This document shows, piece after piece, positions 5,173-56,447 of a DNA stretch of 63,189 nucleotides. This DNA comes from Pelistega sp. (lineage in GTDB: Bacteria > Pseudomonadota > Gammaproteobacteria > Burkholderiales > Burkholderiaceae_B). The notes below the pieces were generated by a model. It was not told where the DNA came from. It worked only from the letters and a program-made list of their open reading frames with translations, and did not search any database. Where the stretch lies: contig JAUNUI010000019.1 in the NCBI GenBank assembly GCA_030538255.1, positions 1 to 63,189 on the forward strand, written 5' to 3'. Position 1 is the stretch's first letter; each line of letters begins with the position of its first letter. Made by a program: the position numbers and the translations under genes.

Positions 5173-5174
5173 AT

Positions 5175-6011: not shown

Positions 6012-6281
6012 AAAGGCCTCTATAAAAGGTGATTGAATAGGAAAAGAGATAAGATTAAGCAAAAGCAAACTTTACGTAATTCTAAAATTTTATTATTAAA
6101 GCTTTATGACTTTAGTTGTAAGGTATTGTGAACTTTGTTACTGTGCTAAGGAAGATCTTGCTTGCGTCCATCGTAATGTCCTCAAACTTGCTAATGAAAA
6201 TCATCCCTGTAAAATAGCATTATGCAGAAGACCAAATTCAGACTAAAATAAGTCTATATATGATTGGATTGGAAAAAGACT

Positions 6282-6551
6282 ATGAAATACTCCACGCGTG
6301 TGAAGCCAATTAGTTACCTTAAGAGCCATGCCGCCGAAATTGCATCAGAAATAAATCAGATTCGTGAACCGATGATGATTACTCAGAATGGCGAGGCTAA
6401 GATGGTGCTTATGGATGTTAAGAGTTATGAAGAACATGAGGCAACATTTGCCATGTTAAAACTCTTGGCCATGGGGAATGCTGAAATTGAGCAGGGTAAA
6501 TTTCGTGACGCAGAAGAAGTCTTTGCCGAGTTAGAGCAGGATGATGAATAA
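6282..6551 (+). CDS. Phd/YefM-family antitoxin
   Basis: An 89-residue antitoxin from ATG 6282. The N-terminus MKYSTRVKPISYLKSHAAEI followed by EPMMITQNGEAKMVLMDVKSYE is the typical Phd/YefM DNA-binding fold; the acidic C-terminus (EVFAELEQDDE) should wrap the toxin. Its stop codon overlaps the toxin start (TAATG), the usual coupled arrangement. It should repress its own promoter together with the toxin. An upstream TTG at 6264 is possible but unlikely. Confidence 0.88.
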   Translation: MKYSTRVKPISYLKSHAAEIASEINQIREPMMITQNGEAKMVLMDVKSYEEHEATFAMLKLLAMGNAEIEQGKFRDAEEVFAELEQDDE

Positions 6552-6889
6552 TGCGACATAAAGTCGTTTTTTTAGCATCCGCTGAGCAAGACCTTAAGCA
6601 GTTGAAAGCTTATTTGCGTACTAGCTTTTCGCCATCAAGCTGGTCAATGACCTATGCAGAAATTAAGCAAGCAACGCAGCGCTTAATGACATTCCCTCTA
6701 TCTGGCTCAATTCCTCAAGAACTTGAAACCTTAAATTTAGTGCAATACAGACAATTCATTGTTGGTATGAATCGGATAATCTATGAAATAAGACAAGAGA
6801 CAATCTATATTCACGCCATTGTTGATGTGCGCAGAGATGCACCATCATTACTGATGCGTAGATTATTGATGAACACAGGTAGTCGTTGA
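6551..6889 (+). CDS. ParE/RelE-family toxin
   Basis: A 112-residue toxin of the ParE/RelE superfamily, translationally coupled to the Phd-type antitoxin. Features: VVFLASAEQDLKQLKAYL at the N-terminus, a central FPLSGSIPQEL segment, YRQFIVGMNRIIYEIR and the C-terminal IYIHAIVDVRRD strand. Without the conserved RelE mRNA-cleavage residues being verifiable by eye, gyrase poisoning (ParE) or ribosome-dependent cleavage (RelE) are both possible; the RYEI-like pattern favours ParE. Confidence 0.86.
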   Translation: MRHKVVFLASAEQDLKQLKAYLRTSFSPSSWSMTYAEIKQATQRLMTFPLSGSIPQELETLNLVQYRQFIVGMNRIIYEIRQETIYIHAIVDVRRDAPSLLMRRLLMNTGSR

Positions 6890-7023
6890 GATCAATACAT
6901 AAAAACTAGAGAGAAAGGTGAATCTATGATAAGTCCCATACAACAATCCTTAGATTATATTCTTCAAGGTGGTTTGTAAAATTGAGACTTTTTAAAGAAC
7001 TTGGATTGTGTTTTTCATTTTAA
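6890..7023 (+). other. Gap after ParE with a 17-codon ORF
   Basis: No full gene. A 17-codon ORF (6927-6980, ATG to TAA) has a GAGAAAGG ribosome-site-like stretch upstream, but resembles nothing I know; it may be a gene remnant. Confidence 0.3.
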
Positions 7024-7053
7024 TTGACAAAACGGTTTAACAACTAGTATTAT
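7024..7053 (+). promoter_or_regulatory. Strong sigma70 promoter for the Abi-associated RNA
   Basis: A perfect -35 TTGACA (7024-7029), 18-bp spacer and -10 TATTAT (7048-7053). The predicted start near 7060 precedes a noncoding stretch that ends in a terminator immediately before the Abi_2 gene. Confidence 0.7.
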
Positions 7054-7059
7054 AGTAGA

Positions 7060-7143
7060 GACAAAACTCGCCGAGCCTCTAGCTTAATTGTGTCGAAAGA
7101 CCGTCCGTAAGGAGCAATGCTAAAATGTGCGGGTTACTTTTTT
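7060..7143 (+). ncRNA. Putative small RNA upstream of the Abi_2 gene (AbiF-type RNA antitoxin candidate)
   Basis: About 84 nt between a consensus promoter and a hairpin (GTAA...TTAC outer stem at 7107-7137, inner GCA/TGC) followed by six T. It contains a GTC-GAAA-GAC mini-hairpin near 7092-7101 and no open frame of any size. The layout promoter, short RNA, terminator, Abi gene is the arrangement of type III-like systems, and AbiF-family proteins are reported to be partnered by a conserved ncRNA (knowledge). I cannot check covariance, so class membership is inferred. Confidence 0.5.
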
Positions 7144-7227
7144 CTAGAATAATAATGTCAAAAAATCATCTTTTCTAAACCAGCTAAAAGTATTGATGAA
7201 CAGATAGCGTTACTCCAGTCTAGGGGG

Positions 7228-8064
7228 ATGGTTATTGATGACATCTCTTTCGCCAAAAAACTTTTATCACAGCATAACTACTATCGAATTTGTGGTTATT
7301 GGCTACCGTTTGAGAAAGATCACAATTTACATTTATTCAAAGACGGTACGACCTTTAAAGAGGTATCAGAAGTATATTTCTTTGATAGGGAGCTGCGATT
7401 AATAGTATTTTCAATTATTGAACAAATAGAGATCGCCTTTCGAACAAAGTGGGCATACATCGTTGCAATGAGGCACGGGTGTTTCGCATATACAGATTCA
7501 AAATTTGCAAAAAATATTCAGCTTTTTGATAAAAATAATGAAAAATTAAAGCGCGAAATAGAGCGTTCTAATGAAGATTTTATTAAGCATTATCTTAATA
7601 AATACAAAGAACCTTCAATTCCAATCTGGTCTATAGCTGAAATAATACCGCTAGGTTTGTTATCAAAACTGTACAAAAATTTATCAGAAGAGAAAACTAA
7701 AAAAAGTATTGCTAATGCTTTTGGGAGTGTTGATTCAACGCTGATTGAGTCCTGGTTAGAACATTTGACTGTCGTGAGAAATATATGTGCTCACCATAAC
7801 AGGCTGTGGAATAGAGAGTTCACGGTCACTCCAAAACACTACACAAAACCACAAGGCGCCTTAGCTGAACAGTTTGTTAGCACAAGAAAAATATATAATA
7901 CCTTAATAATTTTAATGTACTTTAATTCTATTTTAAACAATCATCAGAACTGGTCTAAGCAACTGTTTACCTTGTTGCTTGCACACGAGGATAAGCTGTC
8001 ATATATGGGCTTTCCGAGTGACTGGAAAGGCCGAAATATTTGGAAAGGGTTACTAAGTTTTTAA
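7228..8064 (+). CDS. Abi_2-family (AbiD/AbiF-like) abortive-infection protein, 5' frameshifted
   Basis: The 278-residue frame matches the Abi_2 family: YYRICGYWLPFE, YFFDRELRLIVFSIIEQIEIAFRTKW, IPIWSIAEIIPLGLLSKLY, and the HEPN ribonuclease motif RNICAHH (R-x4-H) near residue 190. The family normally begins about 25 residues earlier, and that segment (KPAKSIDEQIALLQSRG) is present in frame just upstream but has no start codon. ATG 7155 would read MSKNHLF-stop; removing one T from the TTTT run at 7171-7174 joins it to the downstream frame. So the gene carries a one-base expansion, is truncated to ATG 7228 (preceded by AGGGGG), or contains a sequencing error. Predicted role: RNA cleavage on phage infection, held in check by the upstream RNA. 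Confidence 0.8.
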   Translation: MVIDDISFAKKLLSQHNYYRICGYWLPFEKDHNLHLFKDGTTFKEVSEVYFFDRELRLIVFSIIEQIEIAFRTKWAYIVAMRHGCFAYTDSKFAKNIQLFDKNNEKLKREIERSNEDFIKHYLNKYKEPSIPIWSIAEIIPLGLLSKLYKNLSEEKTKKSIANAFGSVDSTLIESWLEHLTVVRNICAHHNRLWNREFTVTPKHYTKPQGALAEQFVSTRKIYNTLIILMYFNSILNNHQNWSKQLFTLLLAHEDKLSYMGFPSDWKGRNIWKGLLSF

Positions 8065-8107
8065 GACCTTGCTTATAAAGCTTAATTAGTTTAGTCGATC
8101 GTATAGC

Positions 8108-8141
8108 GCTCCATTGTGTGAAACATAATGGGGCATTTTTT
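8108..8141 (+). terminator. Rho-independent terminator after Abi gene
   Basis: Arms GCTCCATT (8108-8115) and AATGGGGC (8127-8134, one G-T pair), followed by ATTTTTTC. It sits 44 bp after the Abi_2 stop codon. Confidence 0.75.
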
Positions 8142-8437
8142 CTTCAATTACCTTTTTAGCGAGTGGGTAACTATATTGGCTGCCTATGACGCCTAGCTTG
8201 TAATGAAGAAGTATCGTCACACAAACCGCAAGCTTGCCAAATAAGATTTATTCGCCTCACTTGCGTAGACTACCCTTATTGATAGAACAGCAACGAGGGT
8301 CGAGCAAGAATTCATGACAGACGCATTCAATTAAACATATTGAGAGAGCAATAAGCACTAGTCGAGTGAATTTATCCGCTAATAAAGCCTGTAAAAAGCG
8401 ATTGGGTGCAAAAAGGCCACTGCGCCTGACGATAAAA

Positions 8438-8502
8438 CCTGCTTGAAAAAGCGACCTATATATGTACACAGTATCGACATGTAGTAATGAGTTTGCTGTA
8501 AT
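8438..8502 (+). promoter_or_regulatory. Repeated promoter cassette, copy 1 (LexA-like box plus sigma70 promoter)
   Basis: A conserved CCTGCTTGAAAAAGCGACC block leads into a 16-bp LexA-like box, CTAT-N8-ACAG (8456-8471; consensus CTGT-N8-ACAG), then -35 TCGACA (8474-8479), a 17-bp spacer and -10 TGTAAT (8497-8502). Homology with copy 3 extends about 60 bp further upstream. It precedes the small secreted-protein gene; the -10 to ATG distance is 73 bp, as in copy 3. Confidence 0.6.
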
Positions 8503-8574
8503 GAAGATAAGCAATGACTTATTAAGTTAAGTAAGTCATGACGTTCATCAGTACGCTTGAGTAAGGAGTCAGTG

Positions 8575-8799
8575 ATGCGAATACCATTCGTAAGAACCAG
8601 TGTGATCTGTCTAGGTCTATTACTCAGCATAGCGGGACCCGCACAAGCTAAGAAAGGCGATGCTGGCAAGGTCACCTATGTCGGTGGCGGCCGTTATCTG
8701 TGTACAGGCAATAGCGTGGATTGCACTCGTATTAAAGAAAACAACCGCCGCATCACCCGAGAAACCATCGAGCGTGGCAAGTCGCGTCATAAGCGCTAA
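8575..8799 (+). CDS. Small exported basic protein, unknown family
   Basis: A 74-residue protein from ATG 8575, preceded by AAGGAG at 6 nt (an upstream TTG at 8557 is less likely). It has a clear Sec signal peptide ending AGPAQA|KK, leaving about 50 residues with GGRYLCTGNSVDCTRIKENN, containing two cysteines that could form a disulfide, and a strongly basic C-terminus (ERGKSRHKR). I do not recognise the family. It is the first gene downstream of cassette copy 1, so it may be damage-inducible; a periplasmic role is inferred from the leader only. Confidence 0.65.
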   Translation: MRIPFVRTSVICLGLLLSIAGPAQAKKGDAGKVTYVGGGRYLCTGNSVDCTRIKENNRRITRETIERGKSRHKR

Positions 8800-8912
8800 G
8801 GCTTAAGGCATGAGATACGTGCTAAGTGCTAAGACTTGTCATTAAGGTAAGCGATAGAGCCAAAACAGCACAAGCCAAGCCAAGCTACAGTAAACCTATT
8901 AACAACAAACAT

Positions 8913-8976
8913 CTGCTTGATAAAGCGACCTATATATGTACACAGTATCGACATGTCGTTGATATATTGATTTAAT
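8913..8976 (+). promoter_or_regulatory. Repeated promoter cassette, copy 2
   Basis: Same layout as copy 1: CTGCTTGATAAAGCGACC, LexA-like CTAT-N8-ACAG at 8930-8945, -35 TCGACA at 8948-8953, 17-bp spacer, -10 TTTAAT at 8971-8976. It lies 153 bp upstream of the GIY-YIG gene, in a gap (8800-9128) that otherwise holds nothing recognisable. Confidence 0.55.
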
Positions 8977-9128
8977 AGTAAATAAGGCGTTTCAGTAGTT
9001 TTAGTCGTGCCAGAGATGGCAGTTTTAGTAGAGATTGAATTTCGCCTTTGCTGTGAAGGCCTTATGATCCCAGAAAGTAAGTAATTCTTAAACTAGATAA
9101 AAAATACGTGCAAATAAAGAGGATTTAA

Positions 9129-9713
9129 ATGAAACAAGATATCGATTATGTTTTTAGCATCTTTGAAGCGAGTACCCCAGTTCTACAAATTCATGAGTTA
9201 ACAGATACTTACTGGAAACGTAATACGGCTAATGGTCGTAAGGGCAATAAAGACTCAAGAATCGGACCGTGGAGAGAGGGTAAGTATAGTGTGCTTAATC
9301 AAGCAGCATGGGATGAAAGAGGCGCCTGTTTATATATGGTTCAGGAGGGTAGCAATATTCGCTATATTGGAAAATCAAAAACAAGGCTAAAAGACCGCTG
9401 GCGTTTGTCGCCGGCTCTTGACCCTAAGACCATGGAGCGCATGCCTGGAAGGCAGGTATTTCATAATCAATGCTGGCCTTATATTGAACAATCGGCAACT
9501 CAGAATCCAAATTTGGAGATTGAGGTGCGCTCAATCAGAGCCCATAAATTGAAGGATGTCCTCATCGCATTAGGAGAGCCCTTATCAGAGCTAACTGATT
9601 TTGCGGACGATGAAGGCAATTTTGTTGCCGCGGTTGAACGCTGGATTCTGGGTCGTAGCAGCAACGAGTTAGCAAACTGGAATACAGCTTTGACCAACAA
9701 GGAAGACTATTAG
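9129..9713 (+). CDS. GIY-YIG-type nuclease-fold protein
   Basis: A 194-residue protein with AAGAGGA before ATG. Residues about 66-92 hold the GIY-YIG core in a variant form: CLYMVQEGSNIRYIGKSK, then LKDRWR supplying the conserved arginine; RKG-rich N-terminal and C-terminal flanks (FVAAVERWILG with a candidate metal-binding glutamate) are unfamiliar. GIY-YIG proteins cut or nick DNA. Set between cassette copy 2 and a gene for a free-standing methyltransferase-type N-domain, it belongs to the same defense island and may be co-transcribed with the following gene (126 bp away). Confidence 0.65.
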   Translation: MKQDIDYVFSIFEASTPVLQIHELTDTYWKRNTANGRKGNKDSRIGPWREGKYSVLNQAAWDERGACLYMVQEGSNIRYIGKSKTRLKDRWRLSPALDPKTMERMPGRQVFHNQCWPYIEQSATQNPNLEIEVRSIRAHKLKDVLIALGEPLSELTDFADDEGNFVAAVERWILGRSSNELANWNTALTNKEDY

Positions 9714-9839
9714 TTGAGATAGATCAGCCTAGTGCAAGAACAGCATTTAACTTCACTAGGCTGGGTGACTCTAGTAAAAAGTGAACCTCACAGCGCAATG
9801 GCTAAGAAATTGACTAAGCAATAATAAGGAAGAATTGAC

Positions 9840-10337
9840 ATGACAAGTAAATACAAATCACAGAATAAACACACTATGCATTCTACTAATACACACCATA
9901 AGACAAGCGAACGCTCACAAGGCATCTCCGTGTTCGAGTTTCTAAGCTCACTTAGCTTCCTAGGCGGAGAGCCTGAATCTATTGAGCGCCCATTGGGCAA
10001 GGTATTCGATGAGGAGAATAAATCATCTCAACCAGAGACGGGAGAGGTGATCTTGCCAGGTCGCTTGTACTTTAAGCCTGTAGAGCCAGGGGTGAATTTG
10101 CAGCAGACCTTAGAAAATATGCTCGACGACCCCTTAATTAAACAGCACTATGCCCGCCAAGCCATCGTCACCGATTATCAACATATCGTCGGCTACGACA
10201 GACTACGTGATGAACATGTGAGTTATTCACTGGCCGAGATTGAAGCCATGAGCGAAGCCGAGCGCAATGAACCGATGAAGTTTTTCTGTACGCTGATGGG
10301 CTTGGAGCGAGAGATGTTTCCAAGTGCGATGGCGTAG
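9840..10337 (+). CDS. Stand-alone MmeI/YeeA-type N-terminal domain protein (paralogue A)
   Basis: A 165-residue protein with AAGGAAG before ATG. Residues 32-160 align by eye with residues 27-138 of the large methyltransferase encoded at 12026: both have the FL-xx-L start, NP/QPETGEV then a basic-aromatic strand (GRLYFKPVEPGVNL), VTDYQHIVGYDRLRD and FFCTLMGLE. It has no methyltransferase, helicase or nuclease motif. Its first 30 residues are polar and unrelated. A role as modulator, decoy or assembly partner of the neighbouring restriction-like complex is my inference. Function otherwise unknown. Confidence 0.62.
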   Translation: MTSKYKSQNKHTMHSTNTHHKTSERSQGISVFEFLSSLSFLGGEPESIERPLGKVFDEENKSSQPETGEVILPGRLYFKPVEPGVNLQQTLENMLDDPLIKQHYARQAIVTDYQHIVGYDRLRDEHVSYSLAEIEAMSEAERNEPMKFFCTLMGLEREMFPSAMA

Positions 10338-10426
10338 ATAAACTAGCACCACCTACATTATCGAATGACGGCGAGCCGAGAGTACTGGGAGTGCGGTTAA
10401 GATGACATGGCCCTTACTCGTGAGTT

Positions 10427-10960
10427 TTAGCGAGGGCCAAAGTCAGGCGCATTAAACTTTTTAACCTCAATTTCTTTGAAATTTTGCGGACTAGGCCAGT
10501 TAGGCGTCCTGAGAATATAGTAGTAATAAATAATACTACTTAAGCTAAGAAATCCTAATCGGCCATCCTCTTGCAGCATGAAAGATAAGAAGCCCAAAAA
10601 GATGATAGGCAATAGCATGAAGAGAGCCGCAATCATCCAGTGCACACAACGGCGTAGCAAATAGAAGCGAAGACTGAAAGCCGCCAGGAAGAACAACAGG
10701 AGCATCATGCCAGTTAGGCTGCCGATATCAGTAAATTCCTCATCGCTTGAAAACATAGGAAGCGAAAAGTGAATAATGACAGCCAGGATAAAGAGAATGG
10801 ATAAAGAAAGATTCTCAGAGAAGACCCTAAGTAGATTCCCTTTTTGAATTTTCATGTCTTGAGTATACATGAGATAGTTATCAATACATGAAGAACAGAC
10901 AGTATCGTTTAAGTTGAAATAACCGACCTTATTCTGACAATGGCTACATTGGTCGAACAT
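10427..10960 (-). CDS. Four-helix membrane protein with N-terminal CxxC pairs
   Basis: A 177-residue protein on the opposite strand to its neighbours. The N-terminus has CSHCQNK...CSSC, a possible zinc ribbon, followed by four hydrophobic segments (about residues 48-66, 80-98, 104-128 and 134-148) and a polar tail. I do not recognise the family. It interrupts the paralogue A/B region, so it may be cargo of a separate insertion or a membrane component of the defense island; nothing in the sequence decides this. Confidence 0.6.
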   Translation of the reverse strand: MFDQCSHCQNKVGYFNLNDTVCSSCIDNYLMYTQDMKIQKGNLLRVFSENLSLSILFILAVIIHFSLPMFSSDEEFTDIGSLTGMMLLLFFLAAFSLRFYLLRRCVHWMIAALFMLLPIIFLGFLSFMLQEDGRLGFLSLSSIIYYYYILRTPNWPSPQNFKEIEVKKFNAPDFGPR

Positions 10961-11148
10961 GTTATACCCGCTGAAAGTGATCGAAATCTTGAATTTAAAT
11001 TATATCTAAATTATGAGATGGTAGAGCGAATAGAGCAGGCGATAAAATCTGAAAAAGCGATTACCAGCCAAAAGAGCACCGTACCTAGCGAAAAATCAGC
11101 TTGAAAAAGAGATTGTGTGCCAAAAAATCACTGCTCCTTGCGTCAGAA

Positions 11149-11213
11149 CCTGCTTGAAAAAGCGAGCTATATATGCACACAGTATCGACATGTCGTTATG
11201 AGTTTGCTGTAAT
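11149..11213 (+). promoter_or_regulatory. Repeated promoter cassette, copy 3
   Basis: CCTGCTTGAAAAAGCGAGC, LexA-like CTAT-N8-ACAG at 11167-11182, -35 TCGACA at 11185-11190, 17-bp spacer, -10 TGTAAT at 11208-11213. Upstream, 11092-11148 resembles 8390-8437 of copy 1, and downstream the leaders also resemble each other, so about 190 bp have been duplicated as a unit. Confidence 0.6.
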
Positions 11214-11285
11214 AGAGATAAGAAAGAAACGTAGTAGTAAGTGAATAAACCGAATTTCATTTCATCAGTATCAGGAGAGATAGTC

Positions 11286-11798
11286 ATGAGCGAAATATAC
11301 GATAACAATGACGAACGTTATGAGAATCATGAGCGCCGCGAGCTTCAAGAACGCCGCGAGAACCTTATGCGCATGCGTGAAGAGCATCTGGATAAATTGA
11401 AAGAACAATCCATGGTTAAGTTTTTAAGTGACTTGATTGTGCTTGGCTCCAATCATCCGAAAGCACCGAGACCCTTAGACGAGGTTTACCATAAGGAGAA
11501 CCTGTCACCCAATCCCGAGACGGGCGAAGTGATTAAATCCGGGAAGCTGTTCTTCCGACGCGTCAAACAAGGCGTGGATCTCGATCAAACACTAGCAGAC
11601 ATCCTCGCTGACCCATTAGTAAAAATACACGCCACACGCATCATTGTCGTCACGGATTATCATCATATGGTGGCCTATGACCGATTACGCGATTATCACG
11701 TAAGTTATTCATTAGCCATGGATAGAGAGATGACAGAGCATGAAGGCAAAGAGTCAGCAAAGTTTTTCTTGGTCTTGGCAGGGATGGAATGGACGTGA
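11286..11798 (+). CDS. Stand-alone MmeI/YeeA-type N-terminal domain protein (paralogue B)
   Basis: A 170-residue protein from ATG 11286 with AGGAGA at 7 nt; an upstream GTG at 11241 is open but lacks a ribosome site. Residues 5-42 form a charged, probably coiled-coil helix (ERRELQERRENLMRMREEHL). Residues 45-168 match paralogue A and the methyltransferase N-domain: NPETGEV, GKLFFRRVKQGVDL, VVTDYHHMVAYDRLRD, FFLVLAGME. It sits directly under cassette copy 3 and 228 bp before the methyltransferase. Probable partner or competitor of that protein; this is inference from shared domain and position. Confidence 0.64.
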   Translation: MSEIYDNNDERYENHERRELQERRENLMRMREEHLDKLKEQSMVKFLSDLIVLGSNHPKAPRPLDEVYHKENLSPNPETGEVIKSGKLFFRRVKQGVDLDQTLADILADPLVKIHATRIIVVTDYHHMVAYDRLRDYHVSYSLAMDREMTEHEGKESAKFFLVLAGMEWT

Positions 11799-11837
11799 TG
11801 GGTGGGTGTTAGGGTTGTGCAGTTAACGGTAATTAAA

Positions 11838-11894
11838 AACGGCACTAAAAACGGCAATTGAAAATTGACCACCTGGGGATTTTAGAGTGCCGTT
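11838..11894. repeat. IS21-like terminal remnant / inverted repeat
   Basis: Arms AACGGCACT (11838-11846) and AGTGCCGTT (11886-11894) enclose CGGCAATTGAAAATTGACC, a sequence of the kind found at ends of IS21-family elements. The same core recurs at 34445 and 53884 without any transposase, so these look like scars. It may also terminate transcription of the upstream gene. Confidence 0.4.
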
Positions 11895-12025
11895 GATATC
11901 GTTAAGATGGCATAGCTGTGCGCTGTCTAGTCGAGCTTATCTCTATATAATAGTGAAACAATCAGTTACGAATACAAAGCTCTTCTTTTGTATCCATCAG
12001 ATCTTTATTTTTAAGTGTAGATATT

Positions 12026-14803
12026 ATGTCAGTCAATCAAACAGAACTTTATAATGGTTTAGAGAAAATCGCTAAAGAAGACGATCGCGCTAATTATATT
12101 TATGACTTCTTGAAGTTGTTTGGTGCGCCTGACTCAACCATTACACGCTTACGCAATACTAGCTCTGACTATAACGTTGCCTCAAATCCAGATGCAGGCG
12201 AAGTAGCGCAGAGAGAGCGTGTCTATTTTCTACCCGTGGCGAGTGGTCAAGACATCTTTGCCGCGATGGACACATTGCGCGAAGAATCAAAAATTAAGAC
12301 ACATAAAATCCGCTTTTTATTGGTGACGGACTTTAACGATATAGTCGCCTACGATATGCGCATGGATGACATCTTGGAATGCGCTTTCAGTGAGCAACAT
12401 AAGGAATTATCGTTCTTCTTACCTCTAGTGGGTTACGAGCGTTCACGCGATTGGACCGAGAATGAGGTTGATGTACGCGCTGCTGAGAAAATGGGACGCT
12501 TATTTGATTTAATCCGTACCAATAATGCAATAGAAACCACAGAGCAAGCGCACCACCTTAATGTATTTTTAACGCGTTTACTCTTCTGTTTCTTTGCTGA
12601 AGATACGGGGATTTTTGAAAAAGGCCAATTCACCAAAGCCATCACAGACAATACTTTGCGCGATGGTAGTGATATGGCTGCTTGCTTAGATACGCTGTTC
12701 GATATTTTAAATGAGCCTGATAACTCCGCTATGCGTAAGCGCGTGCCGAATTATTTGAGTGATTTTCCTTACGTTAATGGCGGATTATTTAAAGACAAGA
12801 TTACCATCCCGAAATTCACCGCACGAATTCGTCGTAATTTATTAGAGTCAGCACGCTTAAATTGGTCGGAAATTAATCCTGATATTTTCGGCTCGATGTT
12901 CCAGGCAGTGATAGATCCTGAACAACGTAGTAATCAAGGGCAACATTACACTTCAGTACCGAATATTATGAAGGTGATACAGCCCTTGTTCTTGCAGCCT
13001 CTTTATGATGAATTAAATAAAATTATCAACGTAAAGGATAGCGCTAAGAAGCTTAAAGCTTTGCATCAACTGTCAATTCGCTTAGGTGAGATTAAGGTCT
13101 TTGACCCCGCTTGTGGTTCAGGAAATTTCTTGATTATTGCCTATAAAGAATTGCGCTTACTTGAGATGGCGATCTTTAAAGCGATTCAAGCTATTGCAAG
13201 GGCAGACAATCTCTTATTGAGTACGATTAGCCTTGACCAGTTCTATGGGATTGAGATGGATGACTCCGCTCAAGAAATTGCCACCTTATCACTCTGGCTT
13301 GCTGAGCACCAGATGAATGTGAAGTTTAAAGAAGCTTTCGGTAGTGTGCAACCCACTTTACCACTAAAAGCCAGTGGTAATATTGTGCATGGTAATAGCT
13401 TGCGCTTAGATTGGAATAAGGTCTGTCCTAAGACTGAGCAGGATGAAGTCTATGTGGTGGGCAATCCGCCGTTTGGTGGATCGGGCAATAGAACAGAATC
13501 GCAAACAGAAGATATGGAAATTGTCTTCAATGGTTTTGCTAAATTCAAATTTCTAGATTATGTCTCTTGTTGGTTTTGGAAAGGTGCACAGTATATTCAG
13601 AATAGCCAGGCTAAATTAGCGCTCGTTTCAACAAACTCAATCTGCCAAGGTGAGCAAGTGGCTATGTTGTGGCCTTATGTGTTTGACCTAGGACTAGAAA
13701 TTAACTTTGCTTATCAGACTTTCCCATGGCGCAATAATGCGCGAGATAATGCAGCGGTGCATGTGGTCATTATTGGCCTTTCTATGCAGACGGCAGGGGA
13801 TAAAACAATTTATCGCTTATTGGATGATCAATGGCATAGTCAAGAGGTGCAAAATATTAGCCCTTATTTAATTGAGGGCGGTAATTTGGCTGTGGCTAGT
13901 CGAAGTGCTCCTTTCGCAAATGTTTCAGTAATGCTCTTTGGAAATAAGCCAGTAGATGGAGGTCACTTATTGATGACAACGGCAGAGAAGGATGCACTTA
14001 TTACCGCTGAGCCGAATGCAAAACAATGGATAAAAAAACTATTAGGAGCCGATGAGTTTATTAATGGCAAAGAGCGATGGTGTTTATGGTTGGTAGGCGT
14101 CACAGAAGAAGAACTTCAGTCTATGCCTAAAGTAATGGAACGAGTAAATGGGGTTAAAAGCATGCGAATGTCAAGTCGTAAAATAGCTACTCAACGACTG
14201 GCAGAAGTCCCTCATTTGTTTGGTGAAATTAGGCAGCCAGTTAACGGAGAGTATATTTTAGTTCCTTTAGTTACTTCCGATAAACGACAGTATGTTCCAA
14301 TAGGTTTTTATAACGCATCGGTTATTTCAACTAACCTAAACTCAATCATTCCCAATGCTTCGTTGTATGAGTTTGGGTTAATAAGCTCAACAATGCATAA
14401 TGATTGGATGCGCACTGTCGCAGGTCGTTTAGGGATTGGCTACCGCTATTCAGGCACGCTAGTCTATAACACCTTCCCCTGGCCTGAAGCCAGTGATAAG
14501 CAGAAACAAGAAATTGCGGACCTCGCTGAGGAAGTGATCTTAGTGCGTGAAGAGTTTCCTGCCATGACCTTAGCGCAGCTTTATAACCCTGAGTCTATGC
14601 CAGAGAAGCTGCTTGCTGCACATCAAGAATTGGATAGGGCAGTAGAGCAACTGTATCGTAAGAAACCATTTGCCGATGCTTTCGAGCGGGTAGAGTTTTT
14701 ATTTGGTCTATATGAACAATTAATTGAAGCTGAAAGAAAGCAACTGGCTAATAGACCAGCGACTCGTCGTGCCCGTAAAACTAGTGCTCACACAGACTTA
14801 TAA
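12026..14803 (+). CDS. MmeI/YeeA-like class I SAM-dependent DNA methyltransferase
   Basis: A 925-residue protein. Order: N-terminal domain (24-140) shared with the two small upstream proteins; a helical spacer (LNVFLTRLLFCFFAEDTGIF near 175); SAM-binding motif I FDPACGSGNFL near 358; adenine-methyltransferase motif IV NPPFGGSGN near 478; a target-recognition region; and a C-terminal MmeI-like helical domain (TLVYNTFPWPEAS onward). I see no PD-(D/E)xK nuclease motif at the N-terminus, unlike MmeI itself, so cutting is probably done by a partner. Expected role: N6-adenine methylation marking self DNA. It begins a three-gene set with a helicase and a T5orf172 protein, the order I recall for Bacillus subtilis yeeA-yeeB-yeeC. 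Confidence 0.85.
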   Translation: MSVNQTELYNGLEKIAKEDDRANYIYDFLKLFGAPDSTITRLRNTSSDYNVASNPDAGEVAQRERVYFLPVASGQDIFAAMDTLREESKIKTHKIRFLLVTDFNDIVAYDMRMDDILECAFSEQHKELSFFLPLVGYERSRDWTENEVDVRAAEKMGRLFDLIRTNNAIETTEQAHHLNVFLTRLLFCFFAEDTGIFEKGQFTKAITDNTLRDGSDMAACLDTLFDILNEPDNSAMRKRVPNYLSDFPYVNGGLFKDKITIPKFTARIRRNLLESARLNWSEINPDIFGSMFQAVIDPEQRSNQGQHYTSVPNIMKVIQPLFLQPLYDELNKIINVKDSAKKLKALHQLSIRLGEIKVFDPACGSGNFLIIAYKELRLLEMAIFKAIQAIARADNLLLSTISLDQFYGIEMDDSAQEIATLSLWLAEHQMNVKFKEAFGSVQPTLPLKASGNIVHGNSLRLDWNKVCPKTEQDEVYVVGNPPFGGSGNRTESQTEDMEIVFNGFAKFKFLDYVSCWFWKGAQYIQNSQAKLALVSTNSICQGEQVAMLWPYVFDLGLEINFAYQTFPWRNNARDNAAVHVVIIGLSMQTAGDKTIYRLLDDQWHSQEVQNISPYLIEGGNLAVASRSAPFANVSVMLFGNKPVDGGHLLMTTAEKDALITAEPNAKQWIKKLLGADEFINGKERWCLWLVGVTEEELQSMPKVMERVNGVKSMRMSSRKIATQRLAEVPHLFGEIRQPVNGEYILVPLVTSDKRQYVPIGFYNASVISTNLNSIIPNASLYEFGLISSTMHNDWMRTVAGRLGIGYRYSGTLVYNTFPWPEASDKQKQEIADLAEEVILVREEFPAMTLAQLYNPESMPEKLLAAHQELDRAVEQLYRKKPFADAFERVEFLFGLYEQLIEAERKQLANRPATRRARKTSAHTDL

Positions 14804-14860
14804 GCATTTTCCACCGTAATCCTTTAATTTCGTCACTTTAGTTAGTAAGGAAACAATCGA

Positions 14861-16981
14861 ATGGCTATCCAACTCTTAGAAGTTCAGTATGCACAAACCG
14901 GTAAGAGTACCCAAGGTAATGCGATGGGTATGCGTGAGATGCAGGCTAAGGCCTACGATAAGCGCAACGCGCAATACTTATTGCTTAAAGCACCTCCTGC
15001 ATCGGGTAAATCTCGTGCCTTGATGTTTCTGGCTTTAGATAAATTACATTATCAAGGTATTCGTAAAGCGATTGTTGCCGTGCCTGAGATGTCCATTGGT
15101 AGTTCATTTAGAAATACCAATCTCACCGAGCATGGTTTCTTTGCGGATTGGGAAGTTCTAGCACATAATAATTTATGCACAGATGAGAATGATGCTGGCA
15201 AGATTGAAATCTTTAAAGCTTTTATGGCAAATCCGCATGAGCAGACTTTAGTTTGTACGCATGCAACGCTACGCTTTGCCTGTGATCAGCTGGATGCTAA
15301 GGACTTTGATAATGTCTTGGTGGCGATTGATGAGTTTCATCATGTCTCTGCAGAACAGGATAATCGTTTGGGTGTATTAATTGATCGCTTAATGAATGAT
15401 TCCTCAGCACATATTATTGCCATGACGGGATCGTACTTCCGTGGTGATGGTGTGCCTATCCTCTTATCCGAGGATGAGGAGAAGTTTGAGAAAGTCACCT
15501 ATACCTATTATGAGCAATTGAATGGCTACACGCACCTAAAGTCACTTGGCCTAGGCTATCACTTTTATCAAGGACGTTATCTTGATGCATTAGGCGAGGT
15601 GATTGATCCGACGAAGAAGACAATTATCCATATCCCGAATGTGAATGCGGGTGAGGCCGTGGTTGATAAGTATTCGGCGGTTGGTCACATCATCGATACG
15701 ATTGGTGAGATTGAGAGCACAGATTCTGAGACTGGCATTATTACGGTTCGCACGCATGCAGGTAAGCTCATTAAAGTGGCTGACCTAGTGGATGATAGAC
15801 CGCATATCCGCCCACGTGTTCAAGCCTATCTACGCAATATTCAATCACGTGACGATATGGATATTATCGTGGCGCTTGGGATGGCGAAAGAAGGCTTTGA
15901 TTGGCCGTATTGCGAACATGTACTTACGCTGGGGTATCGTGGTTCCATGACTGAGGTAGTACAGATTATTGGTCGCTCAACACGTGACTGTGAAGGTAAA
16001 TCACATGCTCAATTTACCAATCTTATTGCCCAGCCCGATGCCGCTGATGAGGATGTGAAAGTATCCGTGAATAACCTACTTAAGGCGATTACCCTATCCT
16101 TAATGATGGAGCAGGTCTTAGCGCCGAATATTAAATTTAAGCGCCGTTCCGATATTAAAGCTGGTGAGAAAATAGAGCCTGGCACGATTATCGTTGATGA
16201 TTCAAGCAATAAACCATCCGATAAGGTTATGAAAATCCTCAATGGTGAGCGCGATGAAATTACTGCAGCATTGGCTGAAAGCAAAGAGGCAGAACGCTTA
16301 ATCACCGATACCATCGATCCTGAAGTGGTGAATAAAATTTTACTTCCGAAGATCATCGCTAAGCGTTACCCAGATCTCACGCAAATTGAGATAGAACAAG
16401 TACAGCAAGGCTATTTAACAGGGATTAAAATTGTTCAGGAAGGTGGTCTTGTTGATATTAAGGACATACCTAAGGATGCTGAGATTGAAGGTGAGCGTAC
16501 TTATGTGTATAAGGATGGTCGCTATGTGGATATCAAGACGCTTTCTGAAGAAGAGCAACAGGCGACTCCGCCAGCTAAACAAATTCGTGAGCGAGATTTG
16601 CCTTATGGTACAGGTGGTGAGAATGAAGGTGCTGGTTTAGATCGGAAATTTATCCTATTGGGCAAGAAATTTATTAATGTGTCCAATCTACCCATTGACT
16701 TAATTCAAGCGGTTAATCCATTTCAGCAAGCGTATGAGATTCTCTCGAAGAACGTCACCGCAGAAGTGCTGAAAACTATTCATGACGTGGCTTTAGCTAA
16801 TGAGATTCAAATGACTGAAACCGAAGCCGTTATGTTGTGGCCTAAGATTAATGCCTTTGTTAAAGCGCATAATCGCCCACCATCAATTGCCTCTACCGAT
16901 ACAGAAGAAAAGCGCATGGCTCAAGCGATTGTGTATGTACGTAATCAGAAGGCACAACGATTAGCCGCAGGAGAGGTCTAA
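14861..16981 (+). CDS. DEAD/DEAH-like superfamily 2 helicase (YeeB-like)
   Basis: A 706-residue helicase with AAGGA before ATG. Motif I is an atypical APPASGKS (about residue 45), motif II IDEFHH (about 156), motif III MTGSY (about 188), and motif VI QIIGRSTRD (about 369). The C-terminus ends in a helicase-associated-type module (INAFVKAHNRPPSIASTDTEEKRMA), a copy of which opens the next protein. As part of the methyltransferase-helicase-nuclease set it likely translocates along DNA and couples recognition to cleavage. The following gene starts 5 bp after its stop, showing one operon. Confidence 0.86.
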   Translation: MAIQLLEVQYAQTGKSTQGNAMGMREMQAKAYDKRNAQYLLLKAPPASGKSRALMFLALDKLHYQGIRKAIVAVPEMSIGSSFRNTNLTEHGFFADWEVLAHNNLCTDENDAGKIEIFKAFMANPHEQTLVCTHATLRFACDQLDAKDFDNVLVAIDEFHHVSAEQDNRLGVLIDRLMNDSSAHIIAMTGSYFRGDGVPILLSEDEEKFEKVTYTYYEQLNGYTHLKSLGLGYHFYQGRYLDALGEVIDPTKKTIIHIPNVNAGEAVVDKYSAVGHIIDTIGEIESTDSETGIITVRTHAGKLIKVADLVDDRPHIRPRVQAYLRNIQSRDDMDIIVALGMAKEGFDWPYCEHVLTLGYRGSMTEVVQIIGRSTRDCEGKSHAQFTNLIAQPDAADEDVKVSVNNLLKAITLSLMMEQVLAPNIKFKRRSDIKAGEKIEPGTIIVDDSSNKPSDKVMKILNGERDEITAALAESKEAERLITDTIDPEVVNKILLPKIIAKRYPDLTQIEIEQVQQGYLTGIKIVQEGGLVDIKDIPKDAEIEGERTYVYKDGRYVDIKTLSEEEQQATPPAKQIRERDLPYGTGGENEGAGLDRKFILLGKKFINVSNLPIDLIQAVNPFQQAYEILSKNVTAEVLKTIHDVALANEIQMTETEAVMLWPKINAFVKAHNRPPSIASTDTEEKRMAQAIVYVRNQKAQRLAAGEV

Positions 16982-16986
16982 ACATT

Positions 16987-18324
16987 ATGGAACTTAAGGG
17001 CTTAAGAGGGGGGCAAGAGCCACTTACCTTAGATGATATTTTGTCAGGTGATGATGCTTTCGGCTTGCTCGCTGGGGTAGTTGTTCCGCAGGTGGCGATT
17101 ACGGCAGATGAGCGCCTGATTCAAGGCTTTAATGAGATCAATGCCTTTTATCAACAGCATAATCGTTGGCCACTAGAGACAGGAAGTATGGAGGAGAGGC
17201 GCCTCGCAAGACGTCTTAAGAGCATCAAAGAAAATCAGGAACAGCATGAGGCCTTGCGGCCCTTTGATATGTATGGTGCCTTGGCGCAGGAGAGCGCATC
17301 GCCTTTTTTCAATCAAGCCCAGGTAGAAGGACTAAGTGAGCCTGAGTCTGGGGAAGCATTTAAATTAGAAGCGGAGTCCACGGGTTTCATAGAATCGGCT
17401 GAGCCCACGATAAGTCCAGAGGCAGTAACATCGCTGGATGATATTTTTAATAGCGATCCATTGGGCTTGTTGGACGTGGGAGATATAGGCGTCTTACGCT
17501 TGGATAATGTTCCTGAGCTAGGACAAGGACCTTATGCCGAAGAAGAGATGGGGACTCGATTTGAATGTAAGGATTTCTGGAAGTTTGAAGCCTACTTTAA
17601 AAAAACGCATGACGCCTTGAGAGCAGGTACTGCTGAAATGCGACGCTTGCAAACCGAACAAAACCTACATGTGGGCGATACCTTCCTATTGCATGGGGTG
17701 CTGTGCTATATCACCGATATGTTTAAAACAGAGGAACGTAAGAGTACCCGTAAAAATGCTCGCTTACGCTTAATCTTCGAGAATGGCATGGAGTCGAATA
17801 TGTTGATGCGCTCCTTAGCACGGGCCGTCTATAAAGACGAAAATGGACGGCAGATACTGTTTCTTGATGAAGAATCGATTGATGATGATTTAGTTAATAA
17901 ATTTAAAGCGACAAGCCCAGATCTGACAACGGGTCACCTTTATGTTTTAAAACTCTTGAAGCCCAATGAGCAACTGAGAGAGTTTACAGACTTACATAAA
18001 ATTGGCTTCACCACAAGCGACATCAATGCACGGATTCGCAATTGTGAGAATGATATCGCTTTCTTGGAAAGTAAAGTAATTCCTGTGCTTTCTTTCGAGT
18101 GCCAGAATATGAATCCACAAGTATTTGAAAACCTAATCCATACCTTCTTAAATGGGCAGCGCCTGAACCTAACATTGATATCTAAAGATGGGAACGCCTA
18201 TAAACCACAAGAGTGGTTTGATGTGAGTTTAGATGTTATTGAGCAAGTCGCTAATTTGATAATGAGCGGTGAGATTAGTCTCTATCGGATGAATAATACG
18301 ACTGGGGAGTTGGTGCGGAAGTAG
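16987..18324 (+). CDS. T5orf172 (GIY-YIG-superfamily) nuclease subunit (YeeC-like)
   Basis: A 445-residue protein. The C-terminal part (about 310-425) is a T5orf172 domain: GHLYVLKLLKPNEQ, then HKIGFTTSDINARIRNCEN and FENLIHTFLNGQRL, giving the Y/KIG core, an arginine and a candidate catalytic glutamate of the GIY-YIG fold. Residues about 40-80 repeat the helicase-associated module at the end of the preceding helicase (INAFYQQHNRWPLETGSMEE). Two short acidic repeats, LDDILSGDDAFGLL (about 16) and LDDIFNSDPLGLL (about 148), look like docking peptides. Probably the effector nuclease of the set. Weak ribosome site GGAGAGG 9-12 nt before ATG inside the helicase gene suggests coupling. Confidence 0.8.
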   Translation: MELKGLRGGQEPLTLDDILSGDDAFGLLAGVVVPQVAITADERLIQGFNEINAFYQQHNRWPLETGSMEERRLARRLKSIKENQEQHEALRPFDMYGALAQESASPFFNQAQVEGLSEPESGEAFKLEAESTGFIESAEPTISPEAVTSLDDIFNSDPLGLLDVGDIGVLRLDNVPELGQGPYAEEEMGTRFECKDFWKFEAYFKKTHDALRAGTAEMRRLQTEQNLHVGDTFLLHGVLCYITDMFKTEERKSTRKNARLRLIFENGMESNMLMRSLARAVYKDENGRQILFLDEESIDDDLVNKFKATSPDLTTGHLYVLKLLKPNEQLREFTDLHKIGFTTSDINARIRNCENDIAFLESKVIPVLSFECQNMNPQVFENLIHTFLNGQRLNLTLISKDGNAYKPQEWFDVSLDVIEQVANLIMSGEISLYRMNNTTGELVRK

Positions 18325-18373
18325 TTGTTTTGTGTGACGTGGCTATTCGTAGACAAGTTGAAAGGAGTGTGCA

Positions 18374-19339
18374 GTGGCGTGTAATGGGTATAATCATCAT
18401 CCTTCTTGTAATTGTGGGTGGGGTGGGGTGTGGTATGGTGGTTCATCGTCTAATGACGGGTGGCTTTTTAATAAACCATGGACAACTAGAACGTTGGGTA
18501 GACAACCTAGCACATTCGATCTTCTAGCCGCAAACTATACTAAGCCAAATGTATCATGTCCAGTGTGCGGGGAGACGGTATTTTATTTTCGGTCACGTTA
18601 TGGCGGTCGTGTATATTTTGATAGTTTAGGGCCACCTTGGCCGAAACATCCTTGCACTTCGAGTGATAGTATTCCCAGAAGAGTTAGTATAATACCGTGG
18701 CAGGAAGACGAGTGGAGGGCATTATCTAAGGTTCATATTGAACTAATAAGCGAAAGTAAGCGCACTTATTCGATCAGGGGAGAAAGTAATGGCCGCATAA
18801 ATGTGTTCTATTGTTGTTCTCCTGTGGTGATTACTGCCGATATTGTAAGAGTTAAGAGAGTTGGTTATGGTGTTTTTTCTGCTTCAATGCTGTACTTTGA
18901 ACCAGATGAACAGACTTGGTATGTTGCCGATATACCCGTTTTTACTTCTGAAAAAGATGCTATTGAGCATGGTCCAGGTGTGAGCATAGAAAGAGTTGCC
19001 TTGCAGCAAGAAGAATGCCCTTTTTATTTGAGCACGAGATATAAACAAAATTCGGAAAAAGAAAAGAAAAATAATGTTGTTTCCTTGGTGAACGAAGCGA
19101 AGGATGTGAGTATCGGTTTACATGCAAACTTAGTAGGAATAGATAGTGGATATTTTATTGTAAAATCCATTAAGTTTAAAATATATAATTATGACTTTTC
19201 CATAAGCAACTATGAAAATATTGGATTACTCTTTAGTCAGAGAGAACTTTTGCAATGTCCCTATTGTCGTGCAAAATTGAACAGAAAAAAAGTAAGAAGG
19301 CATATTAGAATACAGCATGGCTATCTTCTTCCGCTTTGA
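18374..19339 (+). CDS. Zinc-ribbon/zinc-finger protein following the yeeABC-like set
   Basis: A 321-residue protein from GTG 18374 with AAGGAG 6 nt upstream, 49 bp after the nuclease gene. Three cysteine modules: N-terminal CNGYNHHPSCNCGWGGVW, a CPVCGETVFYFRSRYGG...HPC ribbon (about 60-93), and a C-terminal CPYCRAKLNRKKVRRHIRIQH finger of C2H2 form. The centre is beta-rich and unassigned. I have seen the CNGYNH-CGWGG opening in uncharacterised proteins but know no function. Position suggests a fourth component of the defense operon; base composition falls toward the 3' end, hinting at separate origin. Confidence 0.6.
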   Translation: MACNGYNHHPSCNCGWGGVWYGGSSSNDGWLFNKPWTTRTLGRQPSTFDLLAANYTKPNVSCPVCGETVFYFRSRYGGRVYFDSLGPPWPKHPCTSSDSIPRRVSIIPWQEDEWRALSKVHIELISESKRTYSIRGESNGRINVFYCCSPVVITADIVRVKRVGYGVFSASMLYFEPDEQTWYVADIPVFTSEKDAIEHGPGVSIERVALQQEECPFYLSTRYKQNSEKEKKNNVVSLVNEAKDVSIGLHANLVGIDSGYFIVKSIKFKIYNYDFSISNYENIGLLFSQRELLQCPYCRAKLNRKKVRRHIRIQHGYLLPL

Positions 19340-19440
19340 TGTATTAATTTTGAAACAATCTATTGGATTAAAAAGGAGAATATAAAAGTAGAGTAATTTT
19401 CTAAGTTTATGGGGGCTACCAAGGGGGAAGTTACACATTA

Positions 19441-19602
19441 TTCATGAAGAGTCATGCAAAACAGTTATTGAATCTAGTGCTTATTGAATATCTTGGAGTA
19501 TATTACAACCGAATCCGACGTCATTCAGTAAATGTATGGATAAACCCAACTCAGTTTGACGAACATTATTGTGTTGCTTTAGAGGAACAGCCTATCTATT
19601 AA
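19441..19602 (+). pseudogene. IS3-family transposase C-terminal remnant
   Basis: 53 codons reading through YLGVYYNRIRRHSVNVWINP and PTQFDEHY to a stop, the conserved end of IS3-family OrfB integrases. No upstream catalytic D-D-E part survives. It marks an insertion scar between the defense island and the toxin-antitoxin region. Confidence 0.7.
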
Positions 19603-19837
19603 TTTGGCTAGGAACAGTAAATGAGGATACTAATTTTTTGGACATAACAGTTCCTTAAAAGGTAAAAACTTATCTTATCGTAGAACGGTTTGTGGTACTA
19701 GCGTTTAGGCAGTGACTTTTTTATAGCGTGTTTTTTTCATAGAAAACTCCTTTTGGATAGTGTATAGAATTTTCTACTTTTAAGCATTCGGATTTTTAGG
19801 GGGGAATACAATTAAATATAAGCGTTATCATTTTGGT
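19603..19837. other. AT-rich gap after IS3 remnant
   Basis: No gene, hairpin terminator or promoter that I can support; the sequence is AT-rich and probably degraded mobile-element DNA. Confidence 0.4.
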
Positions 19838-19969
19838 ATGGCAACAACCAGACCAGTTGCTTATCAACCGATTCTGGACCGAATTATTAAATTGACAGCT
19901 AAACCATTTCCAAGCCTACTTGAAAATTGGGTTACACGTGAACAACATAACCGAGGATATAACCAATGA
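19838..19969 (+). CDS. 43-residue hypothetical protein
   Basis: ATG 19838 to TGA, reading MATTRPVAYQPILDRIIKL and ending REQHNRGYNQ. Its stop overlaps the start of the following gene (ATGA), so the two are probably co-translated. It may be the tail of a larger truncated gene; the frame is open upstream only to a stop about 15 codons earlier. No family recognised. Confidence 0.4.
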   Translation: MATTRPVAYQPILDRIIKLTAKPFPSLLENWVTREQHNRGYNQ

Positions 19970-20292
19970 AAGAGATTAATGTAAAAGAGTTTTTTGATGG
20001 CTTTGTCATTGGCAAGACTACATTTTTGTTCGTAAGTATGTTTTTAGAGGGTAAAAAGCGAACCCCGATGAATTGCCTACTGAAGCCCCGACCCATTGTT
20101 CGCAGGGAGGAAAAGACTTATGGCTTGCAAACGGATTTCAACGATACACCTGAGTTCAAGTCACGAGTCAATAAGATTAATAAGGGGATTGGCGTAATAA
20201 CTGAAACCTACCCTAATTCCATCGTTCAAAATGAGGATGGAACGTACACTTTTACTTGGAGCAACAAGTTCATCACCTACATTATTGAATAA
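19966..20292 (+). CDS. 108-residue hypothetical protein
   Basis: Reads MKEINVKEFFDGFVIGKTTF, a basic middle (KKRTPMNCLLKPRPIVRREE) and TETYPNSIVQNEDGTYTFTW. Coupled to the 43-residue ORF by an ATGA overlap. No signal peptide or membrane segment and no family that I recognise; the placement between IS3 debris and a toxin-antitoxin pair suggests accessory cargo. Confidence 0.45.
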   Translation: MKEINVKEFFDGFVIGKTTFLFVSMFLEGKKRTPMNCLLKPRPIVRREEKTYGLQTDFNDTPEFKSRVNKINKGIGVITETYPNSIVQNEDGTYTFTWSNKFITYIIE

Positions 20293-20319
20293 CTCAAGCG
20301 AGGCCTCAATATCTAATCC

Positions 20320-20835: not shown

Positions 20836-20837
20836 TT

Positions 20838-21113
20838 TTAAAAACCCTCTTTATCTAAGAGTTGAGCAGCTTGTTTTAAACGGTTCGGAACTGATTGTTG
20901 TGCATTACAGATTTCAATAAATCGGTCAAATTGAGTATTACTTAATTCAATATTCGCTTGCTCTTGTAAAATTTGTGGGGCTTGATCGCGAATTAAGCGA
21001 ACCAGGAACTCCGTAAGCGAGGAACAACCTGACGCAGCAGCAGCGCGTTCTGCTAATAATTTTGTTTCGACATCCACTCGCATCTCTATGCGCTCACGAG
21101 AAATAGTTGACAT
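20838..21113 (-). CDS. DUF1778 (TacA-like) ribbon-helix-helix antitoxin
   Basis: A 91-residue antitoxin: SRERIEMRVDVETKLLAERAAAASGCSSLTEFL is the DNA-binding ribbon-helix-helix, and the C-terminal helices (FDRFIEICNAQQSVPNRL) should occlude the GNAT toxin active site. A GAGGAG ribosome site precedes ATG. A palindromic operator lies 34-52 bp upstream. Confidence 0.9.
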   Translation of the reverse strand: MSTISRERIEMRVDVETKLLAERAAAASGCSSLTEFLVRLIRDQAPQILQEQANIELSNTQFDRFIEICNAQQSVPNRLKQAAQLLDKEGF

Positions 21114-21146
21114 ATCAGATCTCCTCTTGTTTTAAAATTATATCAT

Positions 21147-23045: not shown

Positions 23046-23096
23046 TCATTTCACCTAAAAATACGATCACATAGTAAACTGATTGTAAATTCATGT

Positions 23097-56235: not shown

Positions 56236-56381
56236 AAGAGAATCCTAGTGGAAAAGGTGAAGTGGTTCAATATCGATAGTGATTTAATGTCTATATAGAT
56301 ATGAGGCGGCAAAAAAGTCGCTAATTACGGATGAATACATAAACTCTATATAGAAGCAAGACAGCGAAAAAACCAAAAATA

Positions 56382-56447
56382 CCTGCTTGAAAAAGCGACC
56401 TATATATGTATACAGCATCGACATGTCGTTATTGGCGATTATAGAAT
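56382..56447 (+). promoter_or_regulatory. Repeated promoter cassette, copy 4
   Basis: CCTGCTTGAAAAAGCGACC, LexA-like CTAT-N8-ACAG at 56400-56415, -35 TCGACA at 56418-56423, 18-bp spacer, -10 TAGAAT at 56442-56447. It lies 45 kb from the other copies and precedes a lipoprotein gene. Confidence 0.6.

Follow-up and report, generated by a model that had tools for sequence, protein, structure and literature searches.

Two free-standing MmeI_N-like proteins and a putative WYL operator beside a DnmA-YeeB-YeeC-type operon of Pelistega sp.

RESULTS

Within a 63,189-nucleotide stretch of DNA from Pelistega sp. (the window, which is the complete contig C11 of a 2.95-Mb genome), two small genes stand beside an operon encoding an MmeI-like methyltransferase, a helicase-like protein, and a GIY-YIG protein. 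Their products, small 1 and small 2, are related to the N-terminal domain (N-domain) of the neighboring methyltransferase. The small genes look to be switched separately, via a WYL regulator and not the SOS response, and we think that the small proteins act in trans on the restriction complex, with promotion of its activity favored over restraint. An earlier note on this DNA had described both proteins as relatives of the N-domain, and BLASTP in a four-sequence database bears this out: small 1 matches methyltransferase residues 25 to 139 (E 3e-15), small 2 matches residues 50 to 144 (E 4e-11), and the two match each other with 53% identity over 127 residues (E 7e-44). Identity to the N-domain is about 30%.

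Both small proteins carry the first two motifs claimed for them, P-E/D-x-GEV (as PETGEV or PDAGEV) and VTD-x6-YD; the third reads FF-x2-L-x-G and not, as stated earlier, FF-x-L-x-G. Twenty-three columns, VTD..YD and GEV included, are invariant across the small proteins and methyltransferase N-domains. Pfam MmeI_N (PF20464) is the sole family match for either small protein, at 15.3 and 20.3 bits, which is under the 27-bit cut-off; their orthologues in G168, a genome of a second genus in the family, score 14.6 bits (failing) and 28.0 bits (passing). Structure prediction had been suggested as a check, and the model of small 2 points to an N-domain-like fold, with core strands and helices in the same predicted order as in the N-domain. 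The best structural match of this model is the DrdV N-terminal domain, with a modest Z. Foldseek with the small 2 model gave no match at E ≤ 0.001, and MmeI 5hr4 is absent among the 50 VIA-align matches listed for either predicted model. The window proteins are MmeI_N relatives by BLAST and predicted fold, and not members by curated score.

A 48-row tree groups the four small proteins (window and G168) in a single clade (100/100), separate from the methyltransferase N-domains, which were taken from methyltransferase frames of at least 800 amino acids with a match starting within the first 25 residues; shorter frames were left out. The small proteins are, on this evidence, apparently old paralogues of the methyltransferase N-domain. 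Given the separate clade, the tree does not support a recent domain duplication, although the program warned that long branches meet in it. Small 1 and small 2 are orthologous pair by pair across the two genera, with silent sites near saturation. Small 2 has a low rate of amino acid-changing substitution (dN) and is constrained as much as the helicase; small 1 is changing faster than small 2 (dN 0.378). The small genes show purifying selection.

The methyltransferase matches all five MmeI Pfam domains above cut-off and aligns with MmeI 5hr4 at E 4e-206. The MmeI stretch LLIEMKSRGKDL, whose E and K we take to be catalytic, aligns with VYFLPVASGQDI in the window methyltransferase, indicating that the endonuclease E-x-K motif is lost; the alignment shows it kept in neither small protein nor the methyltransferase N-domain. 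At the same position in other loci, relatives of the helicase (54 to 58% identical) carry DEAD/DEAH helicase annotations or belong to the same gene row. The gene order dnmA-yeeB-yeeC, as found at 12026-18324, has been described (PMC9973331, PMC7261158), and B. subtilis DnmA/YeeA likewise lacks the endonuclease motif (here and below, published systems are cited from excerpts of their descriptions). By homology, 12026-18324 is a DnmA-YeeB-YeeC-type restriction-modification operon, for which methylation and restriction activity are predicted. Such methyltransferases (match at E ≤ 1e-30) occur in 22 of 268 genomes of the family, and most of those among the loci inspected adjoin helicase and GIY-YIG genes.

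A neighborhood search found the small genes at 2 of 56 methyltransferase loci, those of the window and of G168. Both lie beside a DnmA-YeeB-YeeC-type operon, so that the adjacency to a yeeABC-like operon pointed out earlier is true of both genomes carrying the small genes. They are absent from the other 54 loci, 47 of which have at least 1 kb of upstream sequence, as judged with a profile that could miss divergent small proteins. The survey held 58 rows, or 56 without L030 and L046, which repeat L059 and L057; its loci are not all independent, as L057 and L058 are different parts of a methyltransferase gene of one genome and L136 looks like L121. It covers 20 of the 22 family genomes with a methyltransferase match, window genome included; G200 and G037 lie outside it, as do further methyltransferase matches in G123 and G213, which have no locus. 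Among loci L024 to L053, which include one each of G200 and G037, short frames are found only in L024 (window) and L025 (G168).

In G168, the order is a divergent WYL gene, a copy of the cassette described below, small 1, small 2, methyltransferase, helicase, and GIY-YIG gene. In the window this row is broken up: an opposite-strand gene (10427-10960) lies between small 1 and small 2, small 2 has its own cassette, and small 1 and the GIY-YIG-like gene ahead of it have theirs. This arrangement suggests that co-control of the small genes was kept through rearrangement. In the locus survey, a BrxR-like WYL gene was found only in G168, plus a 28.6% match in L058; the window stretch used there (5001-24000) ends short of the window's own WYL gene at 55369.

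Wider searches returned few relatives. Small 2 matched 4 of the 268 family genomes, with short frames in 2 (the window genome and G168) and frames of 464 and 914 amino acids in the others. The small-protein alignment matched 2 of 369 genomes of the class and 3 of 150 genomes of the order, with short frames only in the window genome in each case; the G769 match of the order search is a methyltransferase frame that looks frameshifted. Pattern-based scans, which detect near relatives only, yielded 183 stretches from genome contigs with one relative, the same G168 contig, and 334 stretches from viral contigs with none. Similarly, 50,697 phage records held no small-protein relative, and a phage origin of the small genes was rejected on these two results.

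Plasmid searches returned 3 and 36 records. All 3 of the first are annotated methyltransferases, and the 20 matches listed for the second comprise 18 methyltransferase or MmeI annotations, one 287-amino-acid hypothetical protein, and one match without an annotated feature. This hypothetical protein, on Moraxella osloensis plasmid pSKB0120-4 (L186, 7839-13505), can be read as the N-terminal remnant of a YeeA-type methyltransferase; it is accompanied by a toxin-antitoxin pair, with helicase and GIY-YIG genes still behind. Pfam MmeI_N matched 53 of 398 genomes of the phylum, at a limit that misses the window's own small genes, so that divergent ones could escape. Four of the matching frames (in G650, G750, G821, and G850) are shorter than 300 amino acids; the first three, which were inspected, are by eye truncated or internally deleted, and the listed parts of their surroundings show no methyltransferase-helicase-GIY-YIG row. 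The G821 protein (L106, 1307-1870; 187 amino acids) appears by eye to combine an MmeI-type N-domain with a C-terminal remnant, and its surroundings are different.

The gap between small 2 and the methyltransferase gene measures 227 bp in the window and 318 bp in G168. Its best-conserved 24 bp (20/24) begin with TATAAT, which ends 74 bp (window) and 70 bp (G168) before the ATG. Among 20,000 samples of each kind, TATAAT at distances agreeing within 4 bp arose by chance 31 times with mononucleotide shuffling and 13 times with a dinucleotide-Markov model. From this we infer a putative cassette-free promoter for the core operon, which would allow the core and the small genes to be controlled apart. 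The separate control of small genes and methyltransferase proposed in the earlier note is thus again suggested, by a cassette at the former and a separate -10 without cassette at the latter.

The genome has four copies of the 69-bp cassette, all on the window contig and on the plus strand, and each of them is oriented toward a gene starting 54 to 152 bp onward (8557 or 8575, 9129, 11286, and 56494). Its 28-bp core, at up to 3 mismatches, has 4, 1, and 1 matches in the window genome, G168, and G126, respectively, and 0 in the reversed control; the pattern was fitted to six already-known copies in these three genomes. The count thus speaks for the rarity of the core and against a seventh copy, and is not an independent discovery. 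In all three genomes, which represent three genera, a cassette copy directly precedes a BrxR/CapW-type WYL gene. For G126, the start of this gene was taken at MSKKKSPW because the longest frame would include the site, and the gene on the cassette's other, pointed-to side is rmuC. The G126 site (L167, 8047-9588 and 9677-10609) thus lies between a BrxR-like WYL gene and divergent rmuC, in a genome without a methyltransferase match.

The window WYL protein matches BrxR of Acinetobacter (7t8k) over residues 9 to 258 (E 1.9e-56) and CapW (7tb6) over residues 9 to 285 (E 6.8e-39). It has GRQQ where BrxR has SRQQ, described as the DNA-reading motif of BrxR (PMC9122589); RQQ is kept and the first residue differs. 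Inspection by eye showed weaker versions of the site ahead of two further WYL genes, from P. veronii (54% identity) and P. luteola (51%), and no such site ahead of the more distant ones of G179, G170, and G173 (40 to 46%). An 8-of-10 dyad at the conserved 28-mer occurs only in G168; equally good dyads lie elsewhere upstream of the G126, G170, and G173 genes, which makes this a test of little power. The same script recovered from Acinetobacter NEB394 a site matching the published description (9 of 10, gap 5). A promoter scan found no convincing site at the cassettes and, overall, fewer promoter-like sites than in shuffled sequence; by eye a -35/-10 can be read inside the cassette, to which no weight is given. 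Taken as a putative operator, the cassette is most likely bound by the BrxR/CapW-type WYL regulator of 55369-56235. On the P. veronii plasmid (L172, 11974-17794), the 54%-identical regulator lies ahead of proteins with TOTE conflict-system domains.

The LexA consensus is CTGT-N8-ACAG, and the cassette core, with its ACAG arm kept, resembles it; the earlier note had accordingly called the cassette LexA-like. The genome's lexA gene, recognized by its LexA DNA-binding Pfam domain (C23:115310), has the box ACTGTATATTTATACAGT just upstream. A genome scan for lexA-type boxes at up to 3 mismatches gave 7 forward and 6 reverse matches (2 and 4 in the reversed control), namely, lexA, three further places differing by 1 or 2 mismatches, and four differing by 3; the cassette is not among them. 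Further, all five cassette copies compared have the left arm CTA, not the CTG of the lexA box, and the cassette sits instead at BrxR/CapW-type WYL genes in three genomes. LexA control was rejected on these grounds; the likeness is resemblance only, and it is very improbable that the cassette is a divergent LexA box placing the small genes in the SOS regulon. Damage-linked induction, raised as a possibility earlier, is now indirect, because some WYL regulators (PafBC and DriD) respond to DNA damage.

The coordinates of these features are collected in Table 1. The product of the gene at 9129 has no Pfam match, and one of its two relatives matches PF01541 at E 0.21. The layout first reported stands in that small 2 lies directly behind a cassette and small 1 follows the 9129 gene, which is GIY-YIG-like by eye only. 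A 45% relative of the 9129 protein on a Nitrosospira plasmid (L184, 11980-12558) lies near Zorya genes and a gene for a DUF262 protein. The 74-amino-acid protein (8575-8799) and the lipoprotein-like gene (56494-57078, so read by eye) each stand right behind a cassette copy and may be further regulon members; neither product has a Pfam, NCBIfam, PADLOC, or PHROG match at E ≤ 0.1. An Abi_2/AbiD abortive-infection protein is encoded at 7228-8064, and the region therefore looks like a defense island. Other genes nearby are a Phd/YefM antitoxin and ParE-type toxin pair at the island edge (6264-6889), a TacA-like antitoxin with a GNAT-like protein (20320-21113; GNAT match below cut-off), and a Schlafen AlbA_2 protein with a winged-helix end (21567-23045).

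Table 1. Coordinates of the features discussed, as positions in the window
Feature	Position	Strand	Basis or remark
Cassette copy 1	8434..8502	+	Upstream of the 74-amino-acid protein, which has a signal-peptide-like start (by eye)
Cassette copy 2	8908..8976	+	Precedes the GIY-YIG-like gene (ending 152 bp before 9129) and small gene 1
GIY-YIG-like protein, 194 amino acids	9129..9713	+	Read by eye; two betaproteobacterial plasmids carry full-length relatives, one of them near Zorya genes
Small 1, 165 amino acids, free-standing MmeI_N-like domain	9840..10337	+	BLASTP, tree
Cassette copy 3	11145..11213	+	Ends 72 bp before small gene 2
Small 2, 170 amino acids, free-standing MmeI_N-like domain	11286..11798	+	BLASTP, tree, model; long predicted N-terminal helix (4-54)
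TATAAT, promoter-like -10 ahead of the methyltransferase	11946..11951	+	Conserved in G168; no cassette
MmeI-like methyltransferase (DnmA/YeeA type), 925 amino acids	12026..14803	+	Five MmeI Pfam domains; nuclease motif lost
Helicase-like protein (YeeB type), 706 amino acids	14861..16981	+	DEAD, Helicase_C, and ResIII Pfam matches, all just below cut-offs
T5orf172/MUG113 protein (YeeC type), 445 amino acids	16987..18324	+	T5orf172 and MUG113 above cut-off
BrxR/CapW-type WYL regulator, 288 amino acids	55369..56235	-	Probable reader of the cassette
Cassette copy 4	56378..56432	+	Between the WYL gene and the lipoprotein-like gene

DISCUSSION

The best explanation, to which we give a probability of roughly 40%, is a DnmA-YeeB-YeeC-type operon with an added WYL-operated switch, in which the small proteins license or strengthen restriction in trans. 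Its computational support consists of homology, the predicted fold, the loss of E-x-K, a conserved operator site, recurrence in a second genus, and purifying selection. The nuclease-dead N-domain of the methyltransferase would serve as a docking module, linking recognition of the site with the helicase and GIY-YIG nuclease, a role suggested because the N-domain is dead and cutting in YeeA-type systems is presumably done by the GIY-YIG protein. Its two free-standing paralogues would be made from promoters with a shared operator bound by the WYL regulator, and the core operon would be transcribed from its own promoter without that operator. A signal such as damaged DNA or phage infection would make the regulator leave the operators, and small-protein levels would increase. 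By docking in trans onto the complex at its N-domain interface, the small proteins would then license or strengthen restriction. We hold only tentatively that the WYL regulator controls free-standing nuclease-dead N-domain subunits, and not the enzyme genes, licensing or holding back a pre-existing methyltransferase-helicase-nuclease complex.

Licensing is favored over inhibition because CapW, a relative of the window regulator, is described as a repressor of defense genes that rise on infection, because trans N-domains act positively elsewhere (DrdV and HVO_A0006), and because small 2 is well conserved. DrdV, for example, is described as requiring two trans-acting N-terminal EN domains per cut (PMC10201449). 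We infer regulator-operator binding, inducibility, binding of the small proteins to the complex, and, above all, the positive direction of their effect. Several points weigh against this reading. The excerpted CapW work describes the infection-time rise of CapW-repressed genes as unneeded for defense, which weakens the argument from CapW; the window cassette copies have no strong inverted repeat; the -35 partners of TATAAT are poor (3/6 and 4/6); and read-through from the cassette into the core genes is possible.

Were the small proteins instead a built-in antagonist, they would block the N-domain surface that recruits helicase and nuclease, for instance while a freshly induced system is still methylating the host chromosome, or, as restriction alleviation, following DNA damage. 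Domain copies that lack the nuclease make natural dominant negatives, the operator stands at the small genes with a separate promoter-like site at the core, and in G168 the small genes are the first two after the operator and would be made first. Yet related regulators are described as letting defense genes rise on infection, and an inhibitor rising alongside the attack is harder to explain; known trans N-domains are positive, and isoelectric points of 5.1 to 5.9 argue against a strongly acidic DNA mimic, so that a DNA-mimic inhibitor in particular is disfavored. We consider an antagonist less likely than licensing. Constitutive structural subunits, with the shared cassette driving all genes together and no separate modulation, would fit the single row and direction of the G168 genes, where read-through to the core is possible; the core's own conserved promoter-like -10 and the 54 other methyltransferase loci without small genes make this quite unlikely.

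Decoys that mimic the N-domain and soak up phage anti-restriction proteins aimed at it would account for the 23 invariant columns, and the faster change of small 1 than of small 2 fits an arms race. Small 2, however, is as constrained as the helicase, and we know of no anti-restriction protein against such systems; a decoy role is improbable. Least credible is that the small genes are functionless relics of a second, deleted methyltransferase. Truncated N-domain frames elsewhere do look like decay (G650, G750, G821, and Moraxella pSKB0120-4), but here two intact frames stand behind conserved operators and are orthologous pairwise across two genera, with near-saturated silent sites and a low dN for small 2.

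Free-standing copies of a proposed docking domain under a probable defense regulator offer a direct handle both on the role of the dead N-domain and on the timing of restriction. The cassette, once taken for an SOS box, becomes a probable WYL operator with a short, testable regulon. N-domain mimics that look separately switched, known from two genomes, hint at a new way of tuning a restriction system.

The earlier note knew of no described system with this layout, and we likewise found in the openly licensed literature no YeeABC-type operon described as having free-standing N-domain proteins next to it or as being controlled by BrxR. The closest known system is DnmA-YeeB-YeeC itself (B. subtilis yeeABC and V. 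crassostreae relatives), which has the same three genes in the same order as the window; unlike the window, its excerpted descriptions mention neither free-standing N-domain proteins nor a BrxR-type operator, and they report no restriction by the B. subtilis system, which is apparently inactive. BrxR and CapW, WYL regulators of BREX, CBASS, and defense islands, resemble the window regulator in sequence over most of its length, in the WYL domain, in RQQ, and in a conserved site at the gene start. In the window, however, that site recurs in front of N-domain genes that are free-standing and adjoin a YeeABC-type operon, the regulator gene lies far from the operon, and binding is putative. HVO_A0006 of Haloferax volcanii is a free-standing type IIG N-terminal endonuclease region whose deletion is described as altering methylation (PMC4389544); it differs in keeping a PD-(D/E)XK motif, in being single and flanked by transposition genes, and in being seen by its authors as an acquired fragment (PMC4389544). 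Finally, the type IIG/IIL enzymes DrdV and MmeI offer a likeness of predicted N-domain fold (to DrdV) and, in DrdV, N-domains that act in trans. Their N-domain is an active nuclease in the same chain, whereas the window N-domains lack the motif and, in the small proteins, are free-standing.

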